A DNA stretch of 64,000 bases from Kitasatospora sp. NBC_01287. Its GTDB lineage: Bacteria > Actinomycetota > Actinomycetes > Streptomycetales > Streptomycetaceae. The notes under the pieces were generated by a model. That model had not been told where the DNA came from and did not search any database. It was given only the letters and a program-made list of their open reading frames with translations. The stretch is taken from NCBI RefSeq assembly GCF_026340565.1, contig NZ_JAPEPB010000001.1, positions 8,406,001 to 8,470,000 on the forward strand. The letters are read 5' to 3'. This document shows, piece after piece, positions 9,295 to 54,127 of the stretch; the stretch's first letter is position 1; each line of letters starts with the position of its first letter. Position numbers and translations under genes: made by a program.

Positions 9295-9666
9295 ATGAAC
9301 TTCCACCGCTATCACCACGGAGGTGGGATCGGCGGCTGGCACGCCGGTTTCTGGCTCTTCTCGATCGGCGGCTTCGTGCTGCTCGCACTGCTGGTCGTGC
9401 TCATCGTGCTGCTGGTCCGGCTGCTGGGGAGCCGGCACCACCCGGCCTCGCACGGTGGCGCCGGTGCGGGCGGACCGGGCGCCGGCGGGCCCGGTGCGTC
9501 GGGCGGCGGCGAGGCCGAGCGCATCCTCGGCGAGCGGTACGCGCGGGGCGAGATCGACGAAGCGGAGTACCAGCGGCGGCTGCGGATGCTGCGCGATCCA
9601 GGCGGGCCGGGCGGGCCGGGCGTTCCGGGCGGGCCGCCCGTCGGCGGGCCGCCCGGAACGGGCTGA
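9295..9666 (+). CDS. SHOCT-domain small membrane protein
   Basis: A 123-residue protein with ATG 9295 preceded by GGAGAGG. After a His/Gly-rich start it has a single membrane segment at about 22-43 (IGGFVLLALLVVLIVLLVRL), a Gly/Ala linker, and a C-terminal SHOCT motif AERILGERYARGEIDEAEY followed by QRRLRML. SHOCT helices are found at the ends of many actinobacterial membrane proteins and are thought to mediate oligomerisation. The tail is a Gly/Pro repeat. The gene converges on the amine oxidase gene with 23 bp between stop codons. Confidence 0.85.
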   Translation: MNFHRYHHGGGIGGWHAGFWLFSIGGFVLLALLVVLIVLLVRLLGSRHHPASHGGAGAGGPGAGGPGASGGGEAERILGERYARGEIDEAEYQRRLRMLRDPGGPGGPGVPGGPPVGGPPGTG

Positions 9667-9702
9667 TCAGCGCGGGTGCGCCTGGCTGATCAGCGCGGGT
9701 GC
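9661..9702. repeat. 19-bp direct duplication that holds both stop codons
   Basis: GGCTGATCAGCGCGGGTGC occurs at 9661-9679 and again at 9684-9702. The palindrome TGATCA in each copy supplies TGA on both strands. The first copy ends the SHOCT gene on the plus strand and the second ends the amine oxidase gene on the minus strand. Confidence 0.7.
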
Positions 9703-11549
9703 ACCTCCAGGAAGGTGCGGACCGCCGATTCCAGGGCGCCCTCGATCCAGGCCGGCTTCAGGCTGGTGTGCTCACCCGCGAAGTGCACCCGGCCCTCCAC
9801 CGTGCGGGTGGCCGGGTGCAGCTCGTGCAGCTGTCCCGGGGTGAAGATGCCGGCCTCGCCCAGCGCGTACCGGGCGCGGGCCCAGGACTGGGTGGCGGCC
9901 CGGCCGGTGAACTCCTTGCGGACGCCGGGGCCGAAGAGCCTCGCCAGGTCGTCCAGCGCGAAGGCGTACCGCTCGCCCGGGGTCAGCGAGTCCCAGCGCA
10001 TCGCGTCGTCGGACCAGGTGTAGGAGGCGAGCAGCACACCGCCCGGCGAGCCGGCCGGCGAGTGCGAGGGCATGTAGGTGAAGCGGCTGGGGCTGTCCGA
10101 GGTGCAGCCGCCGCCGGTGAAACCGGTACCGCCCTGCTCCCAGAACCTGGTCTTGAACTCCAGCAGCACCTTGGTCGCCGCGTCGTAGTGCAACTCGTTG
10201 ACCGCCCGGCGCTTCGGGTAGGACATCAGCGGCTCGACGGAGCAGAAGCGCAGCGCGCTGAACGGGATGGTGACGATCGCGTAGTCGCCCTCGAAGGACT
10301 CGACGGGGCCGGTGGGCGCGCCGTCGCAGGACTCCTCGGTGCCGCTCTCGGCCGTGGTCTCGATCCGCACCCCGGTGTCGGTCTGCACCAGGCGGGTCAT
10401 CCGCCGGCCCATCCGCAGCTCGTTGCGCAGCGGCGCGGCGAGCGCGGTGGTCAGCGTGTCGGTGCCGCCCTCCAACTCCCAGTAGCGGTTGCCCGGTTGG
10501 ATCACGGCGTGGTCCATCAGGGTGGGGATCAGCGAGTAGTGCAGCCGGGAGGTGAGGTTCTCCAGGGTGCCGGCCGCCTGGACGGTGGCCAGGTCCCAGC
10601 CGGCCTGCTCGATCAGGAAGCGGTGGGTCGAGTAGTCGTCGTAGTCCTGGATGATCCGGGTCCAGGCGTCCAGCTGGGTGTCGATCGGCTGGTTGGTCGG
10701 CACGGTCACCGGGGCCAGCGCGGCGTTGATCGTGTCCGCCATGGTGCTGGTGGCGTCGGTGCCGAAGCTCTCGTTGATCCGCTGCGGGCTGTTCGCGTAG
10801 CCGGCCCGGGTGGTGGCGAGATCGTTGACCCGGATCAGCCGGCGGTCGGTGGCCGGGGGCGGGGTGAACGGGCCCTGGGGGCTGCCGTTGCTCCAGCTCT
10901 CACCGGTGAACGCCTGGTAGCTCACCGGCGGCAGCGGGCCGGTCGGTTCGGCGCCCGGGGCGACGTCGGCGTTGTAGAAGAGCCGGCGCTTCAGGTTCAG
11001 CTTGTCGGCCAGCGCCAGTACCAGCGGGTGGAAGTCCGGCAGCCGCATCGCCCCGGCCTCCGCGTACAGCGCCGGGTCCTTGAAGCCGCGGAAGGTCTTC
11101 ACCCGGCCGCCGGTCCGGCTCGCGTTGGCCTCGATGATCACCACCTCGTGCCCGGCCTGCTTGAGCAGGGTCGCGGCGGTCAGGCCGGCCACGCCGGCGC
11201 CCACCACGAGCACCTTCTTGCGTGCCGCGCGGGCGGGCAGTTGGCCGTCGATCAGGATCCGCAGGTACTGGTACTTGAGGTCGGAGCCGTCGTCGCCGAC
11301 CAGCAGCAGCTTGCGTGCCAGGTCGCGGGCGAGGTCGGCGTCGATCTCGCGCGTGCCGCCGGTGCTGCCGGGGGCGGCGGCGGGCGCGGGGACGGCGCGC
11401 GGTGCGGTGGTGGTGGCGAACGCGGGGGCGGCGGTGGCGGTGGCGGCGAGGGCGGCCGTCGCGCCGGCCGCGCCGAGGAAGCCGCGGCGGCGCAGTCGCG
11501 GGCTCGTCTCCTCCGCTGAAGTTGCCTCGTTGACAGGCGGGTTGGACAT
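9690..11549 (-). CDS. Tat-exported flavin monoamine oxidase / L-amino-acid oxidase family
   Basis: About 619 residues. ATG 11549 is chosen because CAGGAG lies 7 bp upstream; a start at 11591 would read through a repeat. The N terminus carries a twin-arginine signal ([15 protein letters not shown]) and an Ala-rich hydrophobic stretch ending AAPAFA, so export in folded, flavin-loaded form is expected. The Rossmann motif [20 protein letters not shown] is followed by the FAD Glu in VVIIEANAS and by GGRVKTFR. The C terminus has the second flavin motif ([19 protein letters not shown]). The family oxidises amino acids or amines to an imine and hydrogen peroxide. Length and the Tat signal match secreted L-amino-acid oxidases of streptomycetes; the substrate is not readable. 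Confidence 0.92.
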
Positions 11550-45991: not shown

Positions 45992-46021
45992 GCGCCCCGC
46001 CTCCTTCGGGAGGCGGGGCGC
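45992..46021. terminator. strong hairpin terminator after the HAD gene
   Basis: GCGCCCCGCCTCC (45992-46004) pairs perfectly with GGAGGCGGGGCGC (46009-46021) around the stable loop TTCG. The left flank GGGCATGCAGAAG resembles those of the other phage hairpins at 50740 and 62311. Confidence 0.85.
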
Positions 46022-46241
46022 ACAACCCGCGAGCGCGGGGCCAACGTGCAGGTGAGACGGAGCTATGGGCCATCCCCGCAGATGCGGGGCCAAGCCGACC
46101 CCCGCTTGCGCGGGGCGTACGCACTGAACCTCTCCAACCGGTCAGCTAGAGGAGGCTCACCCCCGCTCGCGCGGGGAGGGCGTCATGCCGAATGAGATTC
46201 TTACACCCCACGCGGCTCACCCCCGGCTTCCCGGGGACGGC
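46017..46241. CRISPR. degenerate type I-E-like CRISPR mini-array (5 repeat-like units)
   Basis: Five units contain the 16-base I-E hairpin CCCCGC-N4-GCGGGG or a close variant: at 46025-46040 (altered), 46074-46089, 46100-46115, 46161-46176 and 46221-46236 (CCCCGGCTTCCCGGGG). Flanks also fit I-E repeats: GGCTCAC before the last two, CCAT before the second. The third, fourth and fifth hairpins start 61 and 60 bases apart, the exact period of a 29-bp repeat plus 32-bp spacer. The first two are closer (49 and 26 bases) and look collapsed. No cas gene is in the window. Divergence between units suggests a decayed array or a set of phage structured elements. Confidence 0.55.
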
Positions 46242-46263
46242 TTCACCGTAGCACCGGCCACCG

Positions 46264-46775: not shown

Positions 46776-47312
46776 TCAGTTCGTTGCGGCGGCGCGGATG
46801 CCGGCCACGACGAGGGCGAACAGGTTGATGGTGTCGCGGTCGCCGTTGAGGTAGCGGATGGAGAGCTCGGTGGACCCGTTCTCGTAGGCGTAGAACTTGC
46901 CGTCGGCGACGTCGAACCAGACCTTGTCGATGCTGGCCAGGATGGCGCCGATGCGGCCGTTGGCGATGCCGCGGCCGCCGAGGCTGGCGCCGTTCACGCC
47001 GCCGCTCTGGTAGCGGCTGATGTCGAGCCCGGCGAACTGGGCCCAGTCGTTGAAGTAGATGCGGTCCTTGCCGTTCTTCTGCCAGCGGCTGCCGCCGATG
47101 GCGACGAGGCGCTCGGGGGTGAGGGTCACGGGCTTGGCCTTCCGGGTGCGGCGGATGCTGAGGGCGATCCGGTGGGTGAGGGAGGCGGTTTCGATGGCCC
47201 AGCGGCGGCCGACCTTGGCGGCGGTGACGGCTCCGTAGCGGCACCAGTGGCGGATGGTGGCGATGGTGACGCCGGCCTGGTGGGCTGCTTCGGTGGTGGT
47301 GATGGTGGCCAT
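46776..47312 (-). CDS. MerR/excisionase-type helix-turn-helix prophage protein
   Basis: A 178-residue protein; ATG 47312 follows GGAGGGGACACG. The N-terminal HTH is TTTEAAHQAGVTIATIRHWC then RYGAVTAAKVGRRWAIETAS, the form shared by MerR-like and excisionase proteins. The rest has GSRWQKNGKDRIYFNDWAQF and WFDVADGKFYAYENGSTELS, which look beta-rich and may bind a ligand. A consensus-like promoter with flanking direct repeats precedes it. Role could be phage control or excision. Confidence 0.75.
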   Translation of the reverse strand: MATITTTEAAHQAGVTIATIRHWCRYGAVTAAKVGRRWAIETASLTHRIALSIRRTRKAKPVTLTPERLVAIGGSRWQKNGKDRIYFNDWAQFAGLDISRYQSGGVNGASLGGRGIANGRIGAILASIDKVWFDVADGKFYAYENGSTELSIRYLNGDRDTINLFALVVAGIRAAATN

Positions 47313-47330
47313 CGTGTCCCCTCCTCTGAC

Positions 47331-47381
47331 GTTTCCGATACCGAAAACTATAGCCGCCCTGCCCGAGGTTTTCAATACCGA
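47331..47381 (-). promoter_or_regulatory. prophage promoter with 14-bp direct-repeat operators
   Basis: On the minus strand TTGAAA (47375-47370) and TATAGT (47352-47347) are 17 bp apart, close to consensus. Two 14-bp direct repeats of the form TCGGTAT-N-G-N-AAAC lie at 47381-47368, overlapping the -35, and at 47344-47331, just downstream of the -10. This suits control of the HTH/RHH gene pair by a DNA-binding protein, perhaps one of the two. Confidence 0.65.
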
Positions 47382-47402
47382 CAACCCAGCTGGACGCACA
47401 GA

Positions 47403-48447: not shown

Positions 48448-49269
48448 TCACGTCACCGGATCCGCCCAGGCCGCCGCCCACGTGGCCGGGCCGACCACGC
48501 CGTCCACGGTGAGCCGCTTCTCCTGCTGGAACTGCCGGCACACCGCGGCGGACGCCGAGCCGTACCAGCCGTCCACGGTCAGCGACCAGCCGCGGTCAGC
48601 CATCTGCTGCTGCCAGGTCCGTACGTTCCCGTCGTGCAGCATCGGGGACTGCAGCCGCAGGTACTCGCCCGGCCACGCCGGGGCCGGAGCGAACGACCGG
48701 GCCCAAGCGCTCAGCGCCGCGGTGCTGCCCAGGTGGCAGTAGTCGTGGTCGACACCCGAGCTGGAGTACTGGTGGAACAGCCAGCTCGCGCTGATGCCCG
48801 GCTGCCCGGCGGGAAGACCCGAGGTGGCGATCCACAGGAAGTCCTGGAAGTACCCCGTGGTGTCGACGTGCTGCCAGTACTCCGTGTTGCAGTACAGGCC
48901 GACAGGGCTGTGCGGGGCAGCGCCCTTCAGGTGCCGGAGGAACGCCTCCTTGTAGGCGAGCTGCGTGGCGTGCGACACCGCGGTGTTCGCCGCGTCGTAG
49001 CCCTCCCAGTCCAGACACACCAGCTCGCCCACCTGCGGCTGCGCGAGCGAGAGGAAGTGATCGGCCTCCTGCTGCGGCGAGTTGGCCATGTCCGGGTAGT
49101 GGTAGTACCCCACCACCAGGCCGGCGGCGCGGGCGTGGTCCCGCTGCGCCGTCCACTCCGGGTTGGTGTAGGTCAGGCCCTGGCTCACCTTGATAAACGC
49201 GAAGCTCAAGCCGGTCGTATCCGGTGTCGCCGACTGGTAACTCGCCCAGTCCTGCCCGTAGATGCCCAT
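48448..49269 (-). CDS. endolysin: GH25-type muramidase with peptidoglycan-binding domain
   Basis: A 273-residue protein; ATG 49269 follows AAGGAGCACTGAC. Residues 1-190 resemble the GH25/DUF1906 barrel: MGIYGQDWASYQ with Asp7, FAFIKVSQGLTYTNPEW, VVGYYHYPDMANSPQQEADH, VCLDWEGYDAAN with Asp87 and Glu89 as likely catalytic pair. Residues about 205-270 are a PG_binding_1 domain (DGWYGSASAAVCRQFQQEKR, LTVDGVVGPATWAA). It should cut the glycan strand at lysis. Its start is one base past the stop of the PLD-type gene, so translation is probably coupled. Confidence 0.85.
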   Translation of the reverse strand: MGIYGQDWASYQSATPDTTGLSFAFIKVSQGLTYTNPEWTAQRDHARAAGLVVGYYHYPDMANSPQQEADHFLSLAQPQVGELVCLDWEGYDAANTAVSHATQLAYKEAFLRHLKGAAPHSPVGLYCNTEYWQHVDTTGYFQDFLWIATSGLPAGQPGISASWLFHQYSSSGVDHDYCHLGSTAALSAWARSFAPAPAWPGEYLRLQSPMLHDGNVRTWQQQMADRGWSLTVDGWYGSASAAVCRQFQQEKRLTVDGVVGPATWAAAWADPVT

Positions 49270-49270
49270 G

Positions 49271-49840
49271 TCAGTGCTCCTTGTCGGTCTTCGCGGCGAT
49301 CGTTGACGGGCGGGCCGCCCGAGCGGCGGCCAGCATGTGTGCATGGATCGCGTCTACCCGGGCCCGCGCACGCGTCGCGACCTTCTCGTTCCTGATCACG
49401 ACCAAGTGGTTGTCCTGCAGCGTCTCGCCGGACGTCGACCAATTCGTTGAGCCGGTGACGACATCCTGACCGTCGACGATCAGCAGCTTGAGGTGCTGAA
49501 TGGCGCCCTTCTCGGACCGGCCGACCGCGACACTGCTCGCCGGGTATGACTCGCGTGCCAGTAGGACGCGTTCGTGGACGCCGCCTGCCTGACTTGAGTC
49601 GAGCGTCAACTGGACGAAGACCTTCTCGTCGGCGAGCTTCTCGTGAAGAGCATCGGCGAGCTCGTCGTCGTCAAAGCCGTACTGGGCGAGAATCAGGCTC
49701 GTATCGGCCGACTTGATCAGGTCGAGGAGGACTCCGTGGACATCGTCAACCGGGGAGTAGAAGTCGCGCAGGCCTGGCTTGTAGCCGGGGAAGCCGCCGA
49801 CCCGGTGGCCATCGAGCGCGCTCAGATCGGGGAGGGCCAT
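49271..49840 (-). CDS. phospholipase D-superfamily protein, single HKD motif
   Basis: A 189-residue protein from ATG 49840, which overlaps the preceding stop (ATGA). The HKD motif is intact: [20 protein letters not shown] with His116, Lys118, Asp123. A single motif means the active form should be a dimer, as in Nuc-type endonucleases. [15 protein letters not shown]-like start and [20 protein letters not shown] precede it. Within a phage lysis block it may attack membrane lipid, host DNA or incoming DNA; the sequence does not decide. Confidence 0.85.
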
Positions 49841-50718
49841 CACAGGCCCTTCGCGGTGAGCCAGGTGTGCACCGCGGCGGCGAGCGTGGCGTCCACGGAG
49901 GCAGGGGCCGGCGTGGGTGCCGGGGTGGGGCTCGGGGTCGGCTGCGGGGTGGGGATCGGGTTGGGCTTGCCGGTCAGCGCCGCGAAGTCCTGGCCGAGCT
50001 GGTACAGGTTGATGCCCTGCGGGTCCAAGCCCTTCGCCGACAGCCAGTCCTGGGTGATGACGACCCACGCCTCGTCCACGTACGTGGACCAGAACGCCGC
50101 GGTCAACTTCTGTACCGCACCCCAGGTGACGCAGGTCAGGGTCCCGTCGGCGGCGTAGGCCCCGACCGGGACGCTGTGGCCGCCCTCGATCTTCGAGCCC
50201 TTGACGACGTCCCAGGGCTGCCCGGCGTTGAACTGGGTCATGGCGCTGGCTGGGAAGTTGAAGCCGACGTCAACGGATCCGAACAGGTCGATCGCAGCCC
50301 GGATCTCGGCGGGGTTGCCGACGTCAACGGACGCGTACGCCAGGATCTTGTGGCCCGCGATGCCGGTCTTCTGCCAGTAGGCGAGGACGTCCTGGATCAC
50401 CGCGCCCTGATCGGTGGAGGGGTCAGCGGGGTTGTAGCCGCTGACCTTCTCGTAGGTGGTGAGGATGTCCTGGTCGGCGACGGTGACGGTGGTGCCCTGG
50501 CCGTAGGTGGTCTCGGCCTGGATCATGTGGCCGACCGCGGCACAGGTGCAGTCCCCGATCTGGTCGTTCAGGTACATGGGCCAGCTGGTGACGCGGGACT
50601 GCCAGTCGGCTGTGGTCGGTGCCGGCGGCACTGTGCCCGCGGTCAGGTAGTCGCGAAGCCGAAGTTGCGGTCGGGCAGGCTGGGCGGGGAGCCGGCCGCC
50701 ACGGAATGTGAGGGTCAT
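49840..50718 (-). CDS. cysteine-peptidase-like prophage protein
   Basis: A 292-residue protein; ATG 50718 follows GGAGG. A possible papain/C39-like active site is seen: [18 protein letters not shown] with Cys57 or 59, and [15 protein letters not shown] with a His. A late strand [18 protein letters not shown] carries Asn/Asp candidates. A Pro/Thr-rich linker ([18 protein letters not shown]) leads to a short helix with the same WLTAKGL motif found before the linker. It may cleave peptide cross-links at lysis or act at infection. Family assignment is tentative. Confidence 0.65.
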
Positions 50719-50739
50719 GCGATTGCCTCCGGGCATGCG

Positions 50740-52918: not shown

Positions 52919-54127
52919 CTAGGCGGCGATCACACTGGACGTTGTCAGCTGGTACGACTCCGCTTGCTGCGGGCCGGGCGGGTAGGCGGTCCAACCGGTG
53001 ACCCGGACCGCCACCTGCAGGCCAGGGGAGCCGTCAGCCTTGGCCGGGTGCAGCGCGGACGTCGCGGTGAGGACCGTGGAGTCGCCGAGGGTGATGTCCC
53101 GCAGTCGCGGGAGGGAAGAGCCACCCACGGTGATGACGGGCAAGGTCATCGCCTGAGTCTTCAGGGCGACTTGGCCATCCGCCCAGGAGTCGATCTGGGC
53201 TTGCGTGGTGACAACTGAGCCCTGCCAGGACGCGGTGGACTCCATCAGCGGATACCCGCCGGCCAGGTCCGCGAGGTCAGCACCGTGCGGGTACACCGAC
53301 TGCCACTGCTGCGCCGAGCCGTTGGGTGGTGCGGTGGCCCAGACGATGTTGCTGGACTGCGAGCCGGTGCGCTGGTAGCCGTAATCCAGGCAGTTGCCCG
53401 GGTAGCTGAGCGTGTACCCGGCTTGCGCGGCGGGGCGCCCCAGTTGCAGGTAGGCGAGCCGCAGGAACACCACGAGGTTGCCGCTGCTGTCCAGGCCGGG
53501 CACGAACGCGTACTCCAGTTGGCCGCTGGCGCACATGTCGGACCAGGCGCTGGATATCTGGGTGAGGTCTGACCACACGTATGACGCGGTCCATGGGACC
53601 CCTGCGATCGCCGCGGCCCCCGTCGGGAGCACCAGGCGTGCGACCGGCCCGTTGGTGGCAACCGTCTGCAGGTATGCGGCGGTGCGGGTGGCGGCCGGTG
53701 AGACGCCGGTGGCGATGTACGCCGACTGCTTGCTCTGCCCGTAGACGATCAGGTCGGTGAATGCGGTGCAGAGGTCGACCTGCTGGTACTCGATCGTGTC
53801 CGTGATCAGCCGGTGCGACCAGATGCTGTCGAAAGTGTGCGCCTGGATCGGCAGCGTGCCCTGGGCGCGGCTGGTGTCCGGCCAGTCCCACACCGGGCCG
53901 GCCCACACCGGGTAGCCGTCCTCGAGGACCCACAGGACGGCCCGTCGGCATTCCAATGCCCGGACAAACGGGGCGTTGACCGCGTAGATCTCGTCCAGGG
54001 TCAGCTGTCCGGACAGCGTGCCCGACCCGTTGAGTTGGGCGCTGAAACTCTGGACGTTCAGGGGGATGCTGTCGGCCAGGACCCGGCCGCTGATCAGGTC
54101 GGTCGCCTGATACGTGAAGACACCCAT
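52919..54127 (-). CDS. minor tail protein, siphovirus ReqiPepy6 Gp37-like
   Basis: A 402-residue protein from ATG 54127, which overlaps the previous stop (ATGA). Typical segments of the Gp37-like family are IPLNVQSFSAQLNGSGTLSG, YPVWAGPVWDWPDT, FDSIWSHRLITDTIEYQQVD and the closing VAVRVTGWTAYPPGPQQAES. This family forms part of the tail tip, comparable to tail-associated baseplate hub proteins. No lysin domain is seen. Confidence 0.88.
   Translation of the reverse strand: MGVFTYQATDLISGRVLADSIPLNVQSFSAQLNGSGTLSGQLTLDEIYAVNAPFVRALECRRAVLWVLEDGYPVWAGPVWDWPDTSRAQGTLPIQAHTFDSIWSHRLITDTIEYQQVDLCTAFTDLIVYGQSKQSAYIATGVSPAATRTAAYLQTVATNGPVARLVLPTGAAAIAGVPWTASYVWSDLTQISSAWSDMCASGQLEYAFVPGLDSSGNLVVFLRLAYLQLGRPAAQAGYTLSYPGNCLDYGYQRTGSQSSNIVWATAPPNGSAQQWQSVYPHGADLADLAGGYPLMESTASWQGSVVTTQAQIDSWADGQVALKTQAMTLPVITVGGSSLPRLRDITLGDSTVLTATSALHPAKADGSPGLQVAVRVTGWTAYPPGPQQAESYQLTTSSVIAA

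Follow-up and report, generated by a model that had tools for sequence, protein, structure and literature searches.

When the effector of a CRISPR system is occupied or inhibited, a bacterium can raise the expression of its cas genes by means of CreR. Up to now, such cas-regulating RNAs are known for type I-B, I-E and V-A systems (PMC12737573, PMC13131331). A related guide is CreA of the CreTA module, which is crRNA-like, has partial complementarity to a promoter and represses it through Cascade (PMC12737573). Regarding viruses, two kinds of element come close to a CRISPR array, namely the Racrs, which are solitary repeat units that mimic host CRISPR repeats and exploit host Cas proteins as decoys (PMC10651486), and the virus-borne mini-arrays, which have one or two spacers, host-type repeats and no cas genes and use the host effector (PMC11656645). 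For type I-E Cascade, pairing over 5 nt plus a PAM suffices for binding and interference needs more than 18 bp, and most of the weak binding sites in the same study were without transcriptional effect (PMC5904413).

Here we describe an element of Kitasatospora sp. NBC_01287 found in a 64,000-nt stretch of its 9.49-Mb genome (C1:8406001-8470000, hereafter the window). At 46026-46250, within an intact-looking siphophage prophage, I-E-type hairpins recur at 61- and 60-nt spacing, and the viral genome holds host-type repeats and two 32-nt spacers without cas genes, which is a genuine phage-borne I-E mini-array. It is like CreR in its crRNA-like repeat-spacer-repeat and in a seed that resembles one for a PAM-adjacent cas-promoter site, the handle and seed family being those of the host creR. 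However, it lies in a prophage and not by the cas genes, matches the target in this host at 9/10 and not 10/10 seed positions, has several repeats that enclose another, unrelated spacer as well, and would serve the phage and not the host. Because of its place outside the cas locus and its imperfect promoter fit we do not class it as a CreR, though it may work like one. With Racrs it shares the phage-borne mimicry of CRISPR repeats, but its repeats are spaced and separated by spacers, one with a putative regulatory seed, whereas Racrs are solitary. It differs from the known virus-borne mini-arrays in that no rival-virus protospacer was found and one spacer resembles a host cas-promoter guide, and from CreTA in having neither a toxin gene nor a target promoter adjacent, the suggested target being the cas operon. 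We found no earlier case of a phage CreR mimic in the open-licence literature, where a published example could be missed.

Layout of the mini-array and its prophage

The initial annotation placed the mini-array inside a prophage, and the surrounding genes for terminase, head maturation protease, tape measure, tail proteins and endolysin agree with it. The element stands just beyond the lysis genes and two small genes, facing a convergent HAD gene with an XRE gene farther away; these two neighbours, and the HTH gene on the other side, had been named before and are supported by domain and PHROG matches (Table 1).

Table 1. Features of the mini-array and of the flanking prophage genes (window positions)
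Feature	Position	Strand	Remarks
XRE-type transcriptional regulator, 399 aa	44000..45199	-	flanking; phrog_5823 5e-78; HTH_31
HAD-family hydrolase, 224 aa	45301..45975	+	convergent with mini-array; PF00702/PF13419
Terminator-like perfect 13-bp hairpin	45992..46021	-	end of mini-array; comparable hairpin after R2 in G019
R1, imperfect hairpin	46026..46040	-	no clear G019 counterpart
R2, repeat-like hairpin	46066..46089	-	CCCCGC-ATCT-GCGGGG then ATGGCCCA; abuts R3, no spacer between
R3, repeat	46092..46120	-	GTACG + stem CCCCGC-GCAA-GCGGGG + handle GTCGGCTT
S1, spacer	46121..46152	-	CCTCTAGCTGACCGGTTGGAGAGGTTCAGTGC; identical to first spacer of host array 3
R4, repeat	46153..46180	-	stem CCCCGC-GCGA-GCGGGG, handle GTGAGCCT; core same as host system-2 repeat
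S2, spacer	46181..46212	-	CGTGGGGTGTAAGAATCTCATTCGGCATGACG; CreR-like seed = first 11-14 nt
R5, repeat (unit 5)	46213..46240	-	CCCCGG-GAAG-CCGGGG hairpin + handle GTGAGCCG
Putative promoter-like -10 box TACGGT	46245..46250	-	of mini-array transcript; from sequence alone
HTH (MerR/excisionase-like) protein	46776..47399	-	upstream of mini-array; phrog_2474, phrog_2655; weak Pfam HTH_17/MerR
Endolysin	48448..49344	-	prophage late region; phrog_291 9e-30
Tape measure protein, 1450 aa	56508..60860	-	marks siphophage prophage; phrog_4197 4e-74

On the minus strand, which is the I-E orientation, the order is promoter-like box, R5-S2-R4-S1-R3-R2-R1 and terminator. All five hairpin units announced by the initial annotation are present where it put them, with cores at 46026-46040, 46074-46089, 46100-46115, 46161-46176 and 46221-46236, the first of them being imperfect; of the two spacers it delimited, S1 was exact and S2 begins one base earlier, at 46181 and not 46182. 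The steps from unit 3 to 4 to 5 are indeed 61 and 60 nt, and a scan for hairpins of 6 bp with a 4-nt loop spaced 59-63 nt apart recovered both pairs from the window but nothing from a further 105 phage and genome loci, which add up to about 1.7 Mb. As the initial annotation noted, the repeats differ from each other (69-78% alike), so that the mini-array has the period of an ordinary I-E array for three units but not its near-identical repeats. None of 200 shuffles folds as well as the predicted transcript (z -4.07), and the transcript of the relative in another genome (G019, below) gives z -4.69 against shuffles. In an Rfam search no family reached its gathering score, and the host leader motif (GCAGGTCAGGAAGTGTCCG in array 2) is absent upstream of R5.

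A separate observation is that 66.5 kb including the mini-array (C1:8448525-8515067) is 99.998% identical to C3:1-66542, which is an assembly overlap, a terminal inverted repeat or a second copy.

Host CRISPR systems and the CreR guide

That no cas genes are in view holds for the window; the host, however, has two type I-E cas loci with two cse1 genes, and one of them uses these repeats. This system 2 (about C1:8103-8118 kb) lies about 340 kb from the mini-array, which is therefore not beside the cas locus that it would regulate, and comprises cas3, cse1, cas7, cas5, cas6e and three arrays; cse2 did not turn up in the frame tested, cas1 is not adjacent, the only cas1 match of the host belonging to system 1. 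The comparison with the host I-E repeats that had been proposed as a check gave a positive answer: the system-2 repeat GTCCGCCCCGCGCGAGCGGGGGTCAGCCG has the same stem as units 3 and 4 and an 8-nt handle nearly identical to those of the mini-array, which should hence be usable by the host Cas proteins.

Some irregularities of the host loci are worth recording. About 1 kb without recognised genes precedes array 3 of system 2 where cas1-cas2 would be expected (L018:18346-19432), the leader of array 3 is degenerate in comparison with its relatives, and arrays 1 and 2 hold duplicated spacers (L018:5613, 5674) and a duplicated four-unit repeat-spacer block (9414-9963). Outside the arrays seen, a pair of I-E-like hairpins with 61-nt spacing overlaps ORFs at L020:1291-1367 (C1:7364290).

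System-2 spacers also match the resident prophage with 1-4 mismatches, beside AAG at C1:8474184 (1 mismatch), 8475030 (2) and 8482203 (4), and with PAM TAC at window position 52956, as compared with 0.15 hits for the whole shuffled-spacer set; these matches point to a past conflict of the host with this phage group. We rejected such self-targeting as proof of anti-CRISPR activity, since each of the matches beside AAG is mismatched in the seed and escape mutation explains the coexistence of host and prophage equally well.

Between cas3 and cse1 of system 2, on the minus strand (L018:13050-13230), lies a crRNA-like repeat-spacer-repeat of the published CreR type, whose spacer starts with CCTGGGGTGTAGAT. 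About 113 nt beyond it, in the presumed cse1 promoter region, the guide seed is matched at AAG-CCTGGTGTGTAGAT, the sole such site in the genome, and the host element follows the published CreR logic (PMC12737573, PMC13131331, PMC12948488). The same arrangement, with different seeds, was found in eight more congeneric genomes and on Kitasatospora and Streptomyces plasmids. Across 14 Streptomycetaceae loci, chromosomal and plasmid-borne, guide and target covary: positions 1-5 and 7-11 are matched in all pairs (10/10), and within the first 14 positions mismatches are confined to position 6 (in ten pairs), position 12 (in seven) and position 13 (in two). As the pairs were chosen for matching at 1-5 and 7-11, the weight rests on the sparing of 6 and 12 in comparison with 13 and 14, on the constant geometry and on the AAG PAM. 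Mismatches at 6 and 12 are what one expects, because I-E Cascade flips out every sixth base (PMC5904413). In roughly half of the I-E loci surveyed, divergent-cse1 loci among them, no guide/target pair was found. Unannotated CreR-type elements in the cas3-cse1 gap of Streptomycetaceae I-E loci are present at L088-L091, L093, L094, L096, L098, L321-L324, L330 and L337.

Spacers S2 and S1 and the related prophage

S2 starts with CGTGGGGTGTAAGA and carries the CreR seed family. Against the host cse1 promoter target it matches 9/10 seed positions beside AAG, and only two sites in the genome fit PAM and S2 seed with at most one mismatch, one of them being this promoter. When nine targets are compared, a random seed attains 9/10 in about 0.03% of cases, and the best of 79 control spacer sequences, among which the system 1 spacers were entered in both orientations, matches 7 seed positions. 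A handle-plus-seed pattern, written to cover both host and phage forms, found in 395 Streptomycetaceae genomes nothing but three creR elements of hosts and the elements of the two prophages, the C3 duplicate apart, and its reversed control gave one match. The C at seed position 1 matches only the own host among nine congeneric promoters sampled. R5-S2-R4 has I-E stems, its 8-nt handles resemble the handles of system 2, and it is predicted to be processed in a crRNA-like way. Among the points against a CreR mimic, the S2 seed is mismatched to the target of this host at position 2, while all 14 native pairs are 10/10. A full match to S2 at a cse1 promoter would read AAG[CT]GTGGNGTGTA, and none of the sampled cse1 promoters perfectly matches S2 or either guide of the related prophage.

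This related prophage, in another species (G019), is syntenic and has the same element at the same place, with 74-86% DNA identity in aligned stretches. Its S2 counterpart keeps 13/14 positions of the seed (TGTGGGGTGTAAGA) and 7/18 of the distal spacer (Fisher p 0.003); the R5 counterpart is identical at 25/28 positions, the stems of R4 and R3 are preserved by compensatory G-C to A-T changes on both sides of the pair, the promoter-like box is kept as GTGCTACGGTGAAG[T/C]CGTCCCC, and the R2 counterpart is CCCCGCGATCGCGGGG, after which the terminator follows. The S1 slot holds a different spacer with another CreR-like seed (TGCGGGATGTACAC, best 8/10). No array with a system-2-type handle was found in G019, so the proposed target system appears absent in that lysogen. 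No third prophage with the mini-array was found in the genus, and as the element is known from two phages only, recent common descent accounts for part of the conservation. Searches elsewhere were negative: the whole-element query, as part of which alone S2 was compared with phage records, gave only weak chance-level matches in INPHARED, and none of 105 viral and genome loci encoding a relative of the 49840-50736 protein has the mini-array. CreR-type patterns in IMG/VR gave one chance match in coding sequence, 16 matches without a hairpin and, for a third pattern, none, and a search of plasmids for CreR target sites found nothing, although its composite 34-nt query was artificial and too short to be informative.

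S1 agrees at 32/32 positions with the spacer that opens host array 3 (C1:8117461-8117492), and window 46097-46176 agrees with the first repeat-spacer-repeat of that array at 97.5% over 80 nt. In both copies it is flanked by repeat variants (GTGAGCC; GTACG) unlike the system-2 consensus, and these shared variants mean that one of the S1 units, of phage or array 3, gave rise to the other or that both go back to the same donor. The GTGA handle, which G019 has too, is the form usual in the phages and mildly favours a transfer from phage to array. A protospacer of S1 was found neither in 50,697 phage records nor, with up to three mismatches, in 70 congeneric genomes, where the shared spacer itself occurs in its two copies and in the C3 duplicate. 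Upstream of host array 3, 9/10 seed positions of S1 are matched beside AAG at L018:19140, and the gapped alignment stands at about the 99.9th percentile of shuffles, which we keep as a weak lead. S1 does not fit the CreR model.

Possible function and rival explanations

We lean, with modest confidence, towards the view that the mini-array is a phage-borne CreR mimic which makes Cascade repress the cas genes, that is, an RNA-guided anti-CRISPR; the resemblance suggests that a virus may use the host immune machinery to silence that machinery. A short array RNA would be read leftwards from about 46244 to the terminator at 45992 and probably cut by the host Cas6e. The first guide, S2, would then bind in host Cascade to the cse1 promoter beside the AAG PAM, with a pairing presumably too short for cutting by Cas3, and may repress the Cascade operons of I-E system 2 and of related systems. 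Since most weak Cascade sites in the study cited above had no transcriptional effect, such repression would depend on the site lying within the promoter. The extra repeats may also occupy Cas6e and Cascade, a Racr-like decoy effect.

The initial annotation offered three options, namely targeting of rival phages, a decoy and a decayed capture, among which the decoy comes nearest, although the spacer evidence is more specific in that S2 appears to imitate the host cas-repressing guide. A pure Racr-like RNA decoy, in which the five repeat-like hairpins tie up Cas6e and Cascade whatever the sequence of the spacers, would account for five hairpins against at most two proper spacers and for R2 abutting R3, and Racrs are likewise phage-encoded behind promoters, with a non-targeting crRNA alone being inhibitory (PMC10651486). 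It would not lead one to expect selective conservation of the S2 seed, a match to the host CreR target or a second CreR-like seed in G019, nor is the repeat solitary, as is defining for Racrs, and we consider it unlikely.

Competition between mobile elements, with S1 (and S2) guiding host Cascade-Cas3 against rival phages or plasmids, appears improbable. Viral mini-arrays of such kind are known (PMC11656645), and S1 is an ordinary 32-nt spacer also held in a host array; but the S1 searches reported above leave rival-phage targeting without support, S1 differs in G019, and S2 points to a cas promoter. Slightly less credible still, and least probable of all, is a decayed capture of a host-array piece or a creR locus with no present function. 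The mutual divergence of the repeats and the missing host leader motif agree with it, and the S1 unit common to phage and host array means that recombination has happened; simple decay is nevertheless disfavoured by the G019 prophage, which despite its divergence has this element at the corresponding site, retains the seed, the promoter-like box and the terminator, and balances changes on one side of a stem by changes on the other.

Returning to the CreR mimic, we regard as evenly balanced a broader proposal, in which phage guides copy the cas-autorepression code of the host (a PAM-adjacent cse1-promoter seed), so that the effector silences its own operon in a sequence-specific anti-CRISPR, and host promoter/CreR pairs then diversify in response. 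Host CreR/promoter seeds do vary widely. If true, a phage-supplied CreR-like guide would attack the cas feedback loop by making the defence complex its own repressor, viral mini-arrays, Racrs and CreR would be joined in one mechanism, and the strong seed differences of CreR/promoter pairs between related hosts would have a reason. It would also give a search signature, that is, viral spacer seeds matching cas promoters and sparing positions 6 and 12.

As an observation in its own right, 65 viral contigs in IMG/VR (L233-L297) contain an I-E-type repeat, a 32-nt spacer and a repeat, and several of them resemble mini-arrays without cas genes. Another phage-borne I-E mini-array family is found among them at L237:9207-9279 and L270:3819-3891 and in L277 and L284. 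The first 22 nt of its spacer read TCGCT[A/T]AGCAC[T/C]CGGTGCGGGCA, two lineages differing only at positions 6 and 12 while the distal spacer has diverged, and its layout of promoter-R-S-R-R-terminator is like that of the window element.
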